DNA of 64,000 nucleotides from Acididesulfobacillus acetoxydans (GTDB lineage Bacteria; Bacillota; Desulfitobacteriia; Desulfitobacteriales; Desulfitobacteriaceae). Made by a program: the position numbers and the translations under genes. The notes under the pieces were generated by a model. The model worked only from the letters and a program-made list of their open reading frames with translations, was not told the origin of the DNA and did no database searches. The stretch spans positions 1,798,001-1,862,000 of the forward strand of contig NZ_LR746496.1 of NCBI RefSeq assembly GCF_902729405.1. The letters are read 5' to 3'. Positions 16,536 to 36,510 of the stretch are shown here, piece by piece (the stretch's first letter is position 1; every line of letters starts with the position of its first letter).

Positions 16536-16766
16536 TTGCCTACATCTCCCTCAATAGATAGTGGGGGACAGTATCCATACCTAGTGGTTTACATCGTCCT
16601 AAGCCCAATCATAACGATTTTGGCCGCAAAGAACAAGGCATTCGGGCAAAATTGACAGGGGACGAAAGAATTTGGGCGCAAGCGGTTCGCCCGCCACCCC
16701 TCGCACCTGGTAAAAGCCGGCACGGAAAGAGACACAACCCAAGCCCGCGGCTGAGTGGAGAGAAAA

Positions 16767-16830
16767 GTTAAGGGCTATATAAAGTTAAAGGGCTATATAA
16801 AGTTAAAGGGCTATATAAAGTTAAAGGGCT
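16767..16830 (+). repeat. 18-bp tandem repeats (GTTAAAGGGCTATATAAA)
   Basis: Two exact copies at 16784-16801 and 16802-16819 are flanked by a slightly shortened copy at 16767-16783 and a partial copy at 16820-16830. Decayed GGCTAT remnants continue to about 16857. No spacer diversity, so not CRISPR. It lies upstream of the promoter of the selenocysteine oxidoreductase. Confidence 0.85.
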
Positions 16831-16886
16831 AAAGGCTATCGAAAGTCAAAGGCTATAGGATACATAGAAATTAACTAACCTCGTTC

Positions 16887-16917
16887 TACCCCTGAGGGGT
16901 ATACATCCGGGGTATCC
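16887..16917. promoter_or_regulatory. CsoR/CstR-like operator
   Basis: TACCCC-TGA-GGGGTA (16887-16901) is a perfect inverted repeat with a 3-bp centre, followed by another half site GGGGTATCC (16909-16917). C-tract/G-tract palindromes flanked by TA are typical of operators bound by CsoR/CstR-family repressors, which sense copper or persulfides. The site overlaps the -35 region of the following promoter. Confidence 0.5.
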
Positions 16918-16928
16918 TCGTTTATAAT
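16900..16928 (+). promoter_or_regulatory. promoter of the selenocysteine oxidoreductase gene
   Basis: -35 TATACA (16900-16905), 17-bp spacer, -10 TATAAT (16923-16928). The -35 box is embedded in the palindromic operator, so a bound repressor would block it. About 110 bp of leader precede the start codon. Confidence 0.6.
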
Positions 16929-17044
16929 AAAAACATAAATTTTGCCGGCCCAGGAGAGACTAAGGCAGAGTTTAATGGGCTTTGAACACGCCTTGCGTTG
17001 GGGCTTAAGGAGTGTCAACCTGCTCGGAGAAGGAGGTAGGAATT

Positions 17045-17710
17045 TTGGCGAAATTATTGTCGGAAAAGGATGCCACTGCGATTAGGGGCTTTTTTGACCA
17101 GAATTTGGTGGAACCCGTCACCATGCGTCTCTTTGTTCAAGACGGCGGACAGCCGGACGACTGTATGTACTGCACGGAGACGCAGCAGATTGCTGAGGAG
17201 GTTTCGGAGCTCAGCGACAAGATCAAGCTGGCGGTGCACAAAGTTCCCGGCAAAGAGGATGCGGAACTTAAACGTTATGATGTACAAAGAGTACCCGCTT
17301 TGATCTTGGAAAAAGCGGACGCAGATTCAGGGGTGCGTTTTTACGGTATACCCTCCGGTTATGAGTTCGGCACCCTGATAGAGGATTTAGCCGACTTGTC
17401 GGCGGGACAAACTAAACTTGCCCCTGATATTGTCCGACAGGTTGAGGCGGTGCAGAAAGATGTGACGATTAAAGTTTTCGTCACCCCCACTTGACCCCAT
17501 TGCCCCCGTGCCGTGCGCACGGCTCATCAATTGGCCCTGGCCAATCCGCACATTAAGGCGGAATGTATCGAGGCGACGGAGTTTGGCGAGCTTTCACAAC
17601 AGTACAACGTTTTCGGTGTTCCCAAATCCGTGATCAATGAAACGGTTCAGTTTGAAGGCGCGGTTCCGGAGGCGGTGTTCGTCCGGAATCTGATGCAAGC
17701 GGTGCAATAG
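17045..17710 (+). CDS. selenocysteine-containing protein disulfide oxidoreductase-like protein (two thioredoxin folds)
   Basis: Reading through the TGA at 17492-17494 gives 221 residues. The first half has C40-MY-C43 (DDCMYCTETQQ) and a cis-proline segment YDVQRVPALIL. The second half has FVTPT-U150-PH-C153-PRAVRTAH and YNVFGVPKSVI. This matches the two-domain glutaredoxin/thioredoxin-like PDO family, where the second motif is normally CPxC. TGA replaces exactly the first cysteine. Upstream and downstream frames are in phase and conserved-looking. A GCCGTGCGCACGGC hairpin about 16 nt after the TGA can serve as SECIS. TTG at 17045 has GGAGG 8 bp upstream. The likely role is thiol/persulfide or peroxide redox chemistry. 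Confidence 0.82.
17492..17525 (+). promoter_or_regulatory. recoded UGA and candidate bacterial SECIS hairpin
   Basis: The TGA (17492-17494) is followed by GCCGTGCGCACGGC at 17510-17523, which folds into a short stem with a GCGC apical loop about 20 nt downstream. That is the spacing expected for a SelB-bound bacterial SECIS. CCCC/GGGG-type extensions are partial, so only folding or experiment can confirm it. Confidence 0.6.
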
Positions 17711-17785: not shown

Positions 17786-17824
17786 CGGGGGACCGCCTTC
17801 CCAAGGATGGCGGTCCTCGTTTTG
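17786..17824 (+). terminator. rho-independent terminator
   Basis: GGACCGCC (17789 region) pairs with GGCGGTCC, with an inner TTCC/GGAT extension, followed by TCGTTTTG. It ends the oxidoreductase transcript, and its A-rich left flank could also serve the convergent GH18 gene. Confidence 0.75.
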
Positions 17825-19074: not shown

Positions 19075-19095
19075 AAGTATACGTACAATTAAAAC

Positions 19096-19190
19096 TTTGC
19101 TGGGGGTGCCCCGTAAGGGGCTGAGAAAGAGAAGTCTCTTATCCCTTTGAACCTGATCTGGTTAGTACCAGCGTAGGGAAGCGATATTCC
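19096..19190 (+). ncRNA. TPP riboswitch (THI element)
   Basis: The aptamer carries the conserved blocks GGGGTGCCCC...GGGGCTGAGA, then CCCTTTGAACCTGATCTGG, a short TTAGTA turn, and CCAGCGTAGGGAAG. These bind thiamine pyrophosphate. It lies in the leader of thiS-thiG-thiH-thiFE-thiC, so TPP excess should shut the operon. The expression platform is probably formed with the following TTCCGGGAATTTTTT segment; I cannot decide between termination and other modes. Confidence 0.95.
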
Positions 19191-19394
19191 GGGAATTTTT
19201 TCAATGGGTTTGCCGATGGGATTGGCCACACGCCAATACGGGGTCGGTTTGATTCAAATGAAAAGTTCCGCTAATGAAAGCAGCTTGCCGGGTGGTGGCT
19301 GTTTTTTTGTTTCTGTTTTTTCCCGCCGCGCGTCCCATTGACACTTTCGGGCTCATGGCGGCGGGAACAACATCATCGAAAGGGAGGACAGCGC

Positions 19395-35064: not shown

Positions 35065-36510
35065 ATGTTCATGGGAGGAAATGAGGGCGGTTCCTATCGG
35101 CCTCTGACTCAACAAGAGATTGAAATGCTGCATAAAGCCTCCATGCTGGTTTTTGAAGAGGTGGGAATGGAAGTTCACAGCCGGAGGGCTCTGGAGATCT
35201 TTGCCGCAGCCGGGGCTGAAGTGGACTTTCCCAACCGGCGTGTGCGCGCGGACGAGTCCTGGGTCATGAATCTGGTCAAAAAGGCCCCCTCCCAAGTTAA
35301 ACTCTGTGGCCGGGAAGAAAAACATGACTTGGCCCTCGGCGGCAAAAAAGTCTATTTGGGTACAGGCGGAACGGCGCTCAATGTACTTGATTTGGAAAGC
35401 GGCCGGCGCCGGGCAAGCACACTGGCGGATGTGCGCCGGACCGCCCGGTTAGTGGATGCGCTGGAGAATATTCACTTCTTCGTTTTGCCGGTTTACCCTT
35501 CCGATCTGGCCAAAGAAAACGTGGATGTCAACCGGTTTTTTGCCGGTATGAGTCATACCGGTAAGCATGTGATGGGCGGGGTCTACACCCAGGAGGGGGT
35601 GCGCAAGGTGATCCGTATGGCTGAGGCGATAGCCGGAGGCAAAGAGGCTTTGCGCCGCCGCCCGTTCATCTCCATGATCACCAATATCATGAGCCCGCTC
35701 AAAATGGACGGTACTTATACGGACTTAATGCTGACCGTGATGGAAGAAGGGATTCCCCTGGCTACGCCGCCGGCACCCATTGCCGGGGCGACTTCGCCGG
35801 TTACTTTGGCCGGCACCATGGTCCAGCTCAATGTTGAGGCGCTCAGCGGGCTTTTGTTGGCACAATTAGTCAATCCGGGCATGCCTGTCTTGTACAGCGC
35901 CGTGCCCACGACCGCCGACATGCGGACGATGGGATTTTTATTCGGCGCCGTGGAAAACGGAATAATGAATGCCGCGGCGGCCCAGTTAGCCCAGTATTAT
36001 CATTTGCCTCTCTATGCCACGGCAGGGGTGACGGAGGCCAAAATCCCGGATGTCCAATCCGGGTATGAAAAGATGAGTACCTCGCTTTTGGTGGCTCTGG
36101 CTGGGGGCAATTACATCCATGATGCAGCCGGGTTGCTCGAATCCGGGTTAACGGTTGCTTATGAACAATATGTACTCGACGACGAGATTAACGGCATGGT
36201 TGTTCGAGCGGTAAGGGGGATGGAAGTCGACAAGGAGACACTGTCCTTGGACGTGATCAAGCGGGTGGGTCCCGGCGGCAACTATATTGTGGATGACCAG
36301 ACCTATCAATACATGCGCACGGAGTTTTTCTTACCCAATGTGGCAGACCGTTCGCCAAGGGCCTTGTGGGAGAGCAATGGTGGGTTGGACGGGCGGGAAA
36401 AGGCGCGCCGGATTGCCCGGAAGCTTCTGGCGGAACATGAGGTAAGCCCAATTGATCAGGCCGTGGTGACCGCTCTGCAAACCGAGATGCCGGAATTAAT
36501 TGTAGACTGA
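35065..36510 (+). CDS. MttB-superfamily (non-pyrrolysine) methyltransferase 1
   Basis: A 481-residue TIM-barrel protein of the trimethylamine methyltransferase superfamily, uninterrupted by an amber codon. It therefore resembles the MtgB/MtpB/MtcB group, which demethylates glycine betaine, proline betaine or carnitine, rather than true pyrrolysine MttB. Typical segments are MLVFEEVGMEVHSRRALEIF (at its limits), ATSPVTLAGTMVQLNVE, and the C-terminal RTEFFLPNVADRSPRALWE. ATG at 35065 follows AAGGAGATG. It should pass the methyl to the corrinoid protein at 33819 or 38511. Substrate unknown. Confidence 0.9.
   Translation: MFMGGNEGGSYRPLTQQEIEMLHKASMLVFEEVGMEVHSRRALEIFAAAGAEVDFPNRRVRADESWVMNLVKKAPSQVKLCGREEKHDLALGGKKVYLGTGGTALNVLDLESGRRRASTLADVRRTARLVDALENIHFFVLPVYPSDLAKENVDVNRFFAGMSHTGKHVMGGVYTQEGVRKVIRMAEAIAGGKEALRRRPFISMITNIMSPLKMDGTYTDLMLTVMEEGIPLATPPAPIAGATSPVTLAGTMVQLNVEALSGLLLAQLVNPGMPVLYSAVPTTADMRTMGFLFGAVENGIMNAAAAQLAQYYHLPLYATAGVTEAKIPDVQSGYEKMSTSLLVALAGGNYIHDAAGLLESGLTVAYEQYVLDDEINGMVVRAVRGMEVDKETLSLDVIKRVGPGGNYIVDDQTYQYMRTEFFLPNVADRSPRALWESNGGLDGREKARRIARKLLAEHEVSPIDQAVVTALQTEMPELIVD

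Follow-up and report, generated by a model that had tools for sequence, protein, structure and literature searches.

A selenocysteine-containing PDO of Acididesulfobacillus acetoxydans and its probable place in a CsoR-type thioredoxin regulon

Introduction

The PDOs of archaea, including those of P. furiosus (1a8l), P. horikoshii (1j08) and S. solfataricus, are built from two thioredoxin folds with one CxxC motif in each, and a 2020 review regards them as exclusive to thermophiles (PMC7465337). In the route described for S. solfataricus, electrons reach peroxiredoxins from NADPH by way of thioredoxin reductase (TrxR) and PDO (PMC7465337). A selenocysteine (Sec) form with a UxxC motif has been catalogued under the family model TIGR02187 as a “homolog of AhpF N-terminal domain (Grx-like domain protein)”, with ABB15282.1 as its entry (PMC13188914, PMC9312934). 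A 2026 inventory credits it to Kryukov and Gladyshev 2004 (PMC13188914), and a 2006 survey in Genome Biology recorded it in Carboxydothermus hydrogenoformans and Symbiobacterium thermophilum (PMC1794560). The presence of Sec in PDO-type proteins is a family trait already known, predicted since 2004.

The Sec-containing PDO (Sec-PDO) of the sulfate reducer A. acetoxydans resembles the C. hydrogenoformans (ABB15282.1) and S. thermophilum proteins in its family model, its UxxC type and its stand-alone architecture (PMC13188914, PMC1794560), with the difference that its motif reads UPHC, whereas the C. hydrogenoformans-type protein has UPYC. Its gene also bears a CsoR-type operator that is missing from more distant Sec-PDO genes. 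The archaeal PDOs share its two thioredoxin folds but are Cys-only and derived from hyperthermophiles, whereas the host studied here is most likely a non-thermophilic acidophile. Homologous tandem thioredoxin folds, with the second CxxC retained, occur in the AhpF N-terminal domain and in NTR-PDO fusions (TIGR03140, TIGR03143). These are fused to flavoproteins, in contrast to the 221-residue Sec-PDO with its own promoter, on which the AhpF models score far below their cut-off.

For the regulation of the gene, the sulfane-sulfur regulons of S. aureus CstR and T. thermophilus TTHA1953 offer a likeness in their CsoR-family repressor, their pseudo-palindromic operator and their content of thioredoxin and sulfur-transfer genes (PMC10318464).

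Results

The Sec-PDO gene and its surroundings

The window, a stretch of 64,000 nucleotides, covers positions 1798001-1862000 of the host genome, which is a single contig of 4,520,225 bases. The Sec-PDO gene lies on its plus strand at 17045..17710, running from a TTG start to a TAG stop and encoding 221 residues with Sec at position 150. A ribosome-binding site, AAGGAGG (17030..17036, plus strand), is situated 8 nt before the TTG, and the same arrangement of TTG start and upstream AAGGAGG is kept in relatives (L010-L012 and L014-L016). The translation (LAKLLSEKD...DDCMYCTE...TPT-U-PHCPRAV...QAVQ) contains a single TGA. On the NCBIfam model TIGR02187 (PDO_seleno_TRX) it reaches 256.7 bits (cut-off 185), with residues 7-219 covering profile positions 2-209 of 209, and it aligns over its full length to P. 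furiosus 1a8l and P. horikoshii 1j08 (E ~1e-46 to 1e-48). Each of the two thioredoxin-fold units holds one redox site: C40-M-Y-C43 in the N-terminal unit (17162..17173, plus strand) and U150-P-H-C153 in the C-terminal unit, where U150 is encoded by the TGA at 17492..17494 and the resolving Cys153 by the codon at 17501..17503, both on the plus strand. The two-domain PDO identity given in an earlier note on this DNA is thereby borne out. The same note had taken Sec to be uncommon in two-domain PDOs, which does not hold: the family model itself carries Sec in its name, and about half of 39 aligned members are Sec forms. The closest named relative is Peptococcaceae bacterium CEB3, with 97% identity for the Sec-PDO protein.

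The gene looks monocistronic, with no partner gene adjoining it at its own locus. Direct reading of the sequence places a likely intrinsic terminator downstream, at 17790..17823 on the plus strand (GGACCGCC...GGCGGTCC followed by TCGTTTT); a consensus terminator scan gave no match at 17790-17823, the loop being too long for that consensus. In relatives the order Crp/Fnr, ComFB-like, PDO and glycoside-hydrolase-18-like gene (names by sequence reading) is kept. This conserved neighbourhood is divergent and not an operon, and the idea of an adjacent partner gene was rejected. In one homologous locus, from a genome that is probably Carboxydothermus, a gene for an NADH-oxidase-like flavoprotein and a rubrerythrin-like gene lie upstream of Sec-PDO (L047 1-1278).

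Elsewhere in the window, a TPP riboswitch (19092-19196) lies upstream of apparent thiamine genes (thiS, thiG, thiH, thiF-like and thiC). A match to the Rfam model PYLIS_3 at 36028-36127 raised the possibility of pyrrolysine next door, which was rejected: the MttB-like frame at 35065-36510 has no internal TAG, and this mttB-like gene is probably a non-pyrrolysine homologue.

Decoding of the in-frame TGA

The TGA at 17492-17494 lies in the reading frame, on the first residue of a CPHC motif (TPT-U-PH-C-PRAV), as the earlier note had proposed. Within the family and order, eight genomes carry a Sec-PDO gene (70-100% identity), and every copy has a single internal TGA. Because the codon recurs in the seven genomes other than the host, among them that of Peptococcaceae bacterium CEB3, which was sequenced separately, an assembly error is ruled out. 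In an alignment of 39 homologues, 20 have Sec (TGA) at this position (column 163) and the other 19 have Cys (TGC or TGT), with no third state, so that the Cys expected at this column in homologues is indeed found. There are no further in-frame stops across the 39 sequences, and since all 20 in-frame TGAs fall on one Cys column, their placement is not due to chance. A phylogenetic tree of the family contains three changes between the Sec and Cys states and is compatible with a single origin of Sec. Two relatives (G004 and G043) have a longer Cys form of 558-567 aa in place of Sec-PDO. Extra TIGR02187 paralogues are present in G114, G153, G239, G067 and G362; several of them contain a TGA and are interrupted in the middle, and G362 has one Cys copy and one TGA-bearing copy.

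A literal stop codon is present, and automatic annotation would end the gene there; in that case only the N-terminal domain would be made and the remainder would be decaying. The sequence past the TGA argues strongly against this reading. It continues for 71 homologous residues, as part of the full-length match to 1a8l and 1j08, in agreement with the family-like continuation described before. In each of the 10 pairs compared, the part after the TGA shows less nonsynonymous difference per site than the part before it, and this downstream part is therefore under selection, with purifying selection stronger than before the codon. Given also that the TGA is kept at a Cys column in eight genomes with a complete Sec machinery, a genuine stop is extremely improbable.

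If the codon were reassigned or suppressed, its decoding as a different amino acid (Trp or Cys) would likewise account for a TGA that is read through. Against it, the family column holds solely Cys or Sec, and the host genome encodes selA, selB, selD and a tRNA-Sec with anticodon TCA, so that the sel genes asked for in the earlier note are present. The host SelD is itself the product of a selenoprotein gene, with a TGA in GSKSGUGCK, and a Sec-containing formate dehydrogenase has been detected in the proteome of A. acetoxydans INE, most likely the strain at hand (PMC8982180). We regard a different amino acid at this codon as having next to no likelihood. The comparative evidence makes it nearly certain that the TGA at 17492-17494 encodes selenocysteine.

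A conserved SECIS-type hairpin

Seven consecutive codons downstream of the TGA (+4 to +10) are identical in all genomes of five genera, among which synonymous sites are near saturation. By comparison, only 7 of 108 other amino-acid-invariant degenerate columns are frozen in this way (Fisher 5.6e-7), and the longest run of frozen codons, seven, was matched in none of 20,000 shuffles. This run overlaps a bSECIS-type hairpin at 17506..17522 on the plus strand, defined by comparative analysis, with a stem of 17506-17511 paired to 17517-17522 and a loop at 17512-17516. Among 15 distinct Sec sequences, 88.9% of cells at the stem columns are paired, and one stem pair is exchanged from G-C to U-A. At the same columns in 17 Cys sequences, pairing is 51% and not above shuffled sequences. 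The homologues L047, L049 and L051 use a shifted stem.

The fold of the host's own hairpin, taken as a single sequence, is unremarkable (z -0.54); support for the element accordingly comes from the cross-family comparison. The hairpin proposed in the earlier note stands in its SECIS position, but its register does not: GCCGTGCGCACGGC (17510-17523) is palindromic, whereas the family keeps 17506-17511/17517-17522. Folding downstream of the TGA had also been suggested as a check, and here the pairing conserved among Sec homologues speaks for the element while the single-sequence score does not. From these comparisons, the downstream hairpin is predicted to act as a bSECIS that is kept in Sec homologues and absent from Cys ones.

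The C-terminal active site

Every Sec homologue in the alignment keeps the UxxC of the second fold. The N-terminal CxxC, by contrast, has been lost in the Sec homologues L057, L058, L060 and L061 and in the Cys homologues L052 and L059. In the S. solfataricus PDO, mutagenesis identified the C-terminal site as fundamental for thiol-transferase activity (PMC7465337). From these patterns we infer that the C-terminal UxxC is the essential site, in which U150 would attack and C153 resolve, with the N-terminal site accessory. Sec had been assigned beforehand to either the attacking or the resolving position of the second site; the first, attacking position is the one supported. In two of the loci where the N-terminal CxxC is missing (L057 and L060), Sec-PDO adjoins a gene of the metallo-beta-lactamase fold resembling persulfide dioxygenase, a hint of sulfane sulfur, and at L057 a rhodanese-like gene also lies beside it.

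What such a site reduces is a separate matter. Sec-PDO could be mainly a peroxide-defence reductase that feeds the host's own Sec-containing AhpC/PrxU-like peroxiredoxin, in the manner of the AhpF N-terminal domain with AhpC. The host does encode a Sec-peroxiredoxin (L069, G000:C1:965496-966080, minus strand), with its peroxidatic Sec in FTFVUPTE and with GVPADW in place of the usual C-terminal VCP, the resolving Cys of which is gone; moreover, TIGR02187 is related to the AhpF N-terminal domain, and archaeal PDOs reduce peroxiredoxins (PMC7465337). The distribution of the two genes points the other way. Of the eight close genomes with Sec-PDO, just three (G000, G001 and G037) also have the Sec-peroxiredoxin, and in a different genus of the family (g6) four genomes encode the peroxiredoxin and no PDO at all. 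The peroxiredoxin gene is not adjacent to Sec-PDO, the operator pattern has no site there, and a co-occurrence test gave no support for a pairing of Sec-PDO with Sec-peroxiredoxin. We consider a main role in peroxide defence rather improbable.

A CsoR-type operator over the promoter

The predicted promoter of Sec-PDO (16900..16928, plus strand) consists of a -35 box TATACA (16900-16905), a 17 nt spacer and a -10 box TATAAT (16923-16928), and was recognised by a scan and by its conserved geometry. A CsoR-type operator, TACCCC-TGA-GGGGTA (TACCCCTGAGGGGTA), lies at 16887..16901 and overlaps the -35 box; 0.01 such sites are expected by chance in the window. Seven of the eight close Sec-PDO genes have the operator (TACCC-N4-GGGGTA or its reverse complement) in their upstream region, and in all seven promoters it lies 36 nt ahead of the -10 box, counted from first base to first base. 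It is missing at one close Sec-PDO gene (L013, G007) and was not found at Sec-PDO genes outside the host's order, which indicates that this regulation is lineage-specific. Upstream of the operator, at 16764-16831, the window also holds a tandem AAAGTTAAAGGGCTATAT array (18 bp, 3.8 copies), which does not occur in the 300 bases upstream of Sec-PDO in the sister genome (L010).

A probable operator regulon

The operator pattern occurs at seven places in the 4.5-Mb genome, against one for a reversed control. Besides the Sec-PDO promoter (16887..16901 of the window), it precedes csoR of a csoR-trxA operon by 19 bp (TACCCCCGCAGGGTA; L073 1501-1812 and downstream, G000:C1:2601942-2602700), the thioredoxin reductase gene trxB by 25 bp (L063) and a gene for a thioredoxin-TrxR fusion by 96 bp (L064). 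The remaining sites lie before a TlpA/ResA-like lipoprotein gene, a small ferredoxin-like gene and a zinc-ribbon-like gene (G000:C1:3300095 and 3928490 for the last two; L077, L078). In G001 and G007, genes similar to the zinc-ribbon-like gene also follow a copy of this operator.

The search was extended to 20 more genomes of the family and order and three more distant ones, with sites retrieved from 19. Counting the host, 16 genomes have the operator ahead of csoR, which lies 13-52 bp downstream of it and is usually followed by trxA; the majority of the family and order genomes searched keep this arrangement. The operator precedes trxB in 10 genomes and the Trx-TrxR fusion in 6. At the observed densities, chance would place about 3e-4 sites per genome in the 200 bp preceding a given gene. 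Sites in relatives also lie before rhodanese genes (G004, G006, G012 and G014), before DsrE-like and DUF302 genes (G039) and before a pyridine-nucleotide disulfide reductase gene that reads as CoA-disulfide reductase-like (G014). As Sec-PDO has its operator in common with csoR-trxA, trxB, the Trx-TrxR fusion and the TlpA-like gene, it most likely belongs to a thioredoxin regulon, of which the csoR-trxA operon may be the hub and which would answer to thiol or sulfane-sulfur stress.

The repressor encoded at L079 matches PF02583 (99.3 bits) and has the operator in its own promoter. The persulfide sensor CstR is marked by two conserved Cys without the copper-binding His. The L079 product keeps the Cys-His-Cys pattern, and with it the copper-triad His, and the closest of its solved relatives is the copper CsoR of Geobacillus; it is not assigned to CstR, and a similar role is no more than possible. 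These same features would suit a repressor that senses copper rather than sulfane sulfur, which would make the thioredoxin regulon a copper-stress response. The rest of the genome gives such a reading less room: a separate CsoR gene (L080) is present with a copper-chaperone-like domain gene downstream, and no copper transporter gene is found among the host's own operator sites. The orthologous regulons, with their rhodanese, DsrE-like, DUF302, Trx and TlpA genes, favour sulfur, and in Thermus a CsoR-family regulator governs sulfur oxidation together with a thioredoxin (PMC10318464). Copper sensing is unlikely, although with some weight left to it. The sulfane-sulfur reading is drawn from the rhodanese, DsrE-like, DUF302 and thioredoxin genes in its company and from the Thermus parallel. 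In contrast to the CstR and TTHA1953 regulons, the one proposed here is centred on csoR-trxA, trxB and a selenoprotein PDO, and the A. acetoxydans operator differs from that of TTHA1953 (TACNNTACNNNNGTANNGTA). We found no earlier description of a CsoR-type thioredoxin regulon in the literature searched, in which coverage of CstR was incomplete.

Discussion

Taken as a whole, the evidence is best explained if Sec-PDO belongs, as its selenium arm, to a thioredoxin regulon that is derepressed under thiol or sulfane-sulfur stress, an account that we consider probable on the grounds of sequence comparison. SelB and tRNA-Sec would decode the UGA at 17492 as selenocysteine, aided by the downstream hairpin. 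A CsoR-family repressor is expected, from the shared sequence, to bind the operator over the -35 box and to be released by a thiol-reactive signal. By analogy with family chemistry, the U150 selenolate would then attack a disulfide, a persulfide or an oxidised partner, and Cys153 would resolve the adduct to a selenenylsulfide. The U150/Cys153 pair may be reset by thioredoxin reductase, either directly or via C40-M-Y-C43. Two TrxR genes (L063 and L064) have the operator in common with Sec-PDO, and we infer that thioredoxin reductase feeds Sec-PDO, which would be induced by thiol or sulfane-sulfur stress. Its substrates may be protein disulfides, persulfides or polysulfides.

A more specific proposal is that Sec-PDO acts as a selenium-dependent protein-persulfide/polysulfide reductase and is the dedicated effector of a sulfane-sulfur-sensing CsoR-family regulon in sulfate- and sulfur-reducing Clostridia, with Sec preferred to Cys for its better resistance to sulfane sulfur or its better turnover of it. 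We put this forward tentatively, as a possibility that falls somewhat short of even likelihood.

The Sec-PDO family is, as far as we found, biochemically uncharacterised, and the operator gives a functional handle on it. Through its link to thioredoxin, thioredoxin reductase and sulfur-relay genes, the electron donor, the inducer and the class of substrate become testable. The locus is also an example of a PDO, a type described as exclusive to thermophiles, in a host that is most likely acidophilic and non-thermophilic. Of the two active sites, the first can be missing from homologues, and the second, which bears the selenium, is always retained. If the proposed account is true, csoR-trxA, trxB, Trx-TrxR and Sec-PDO, together with rhodanese and DsrE-like genes in relatives, would constitute a previously undescribed regulon.
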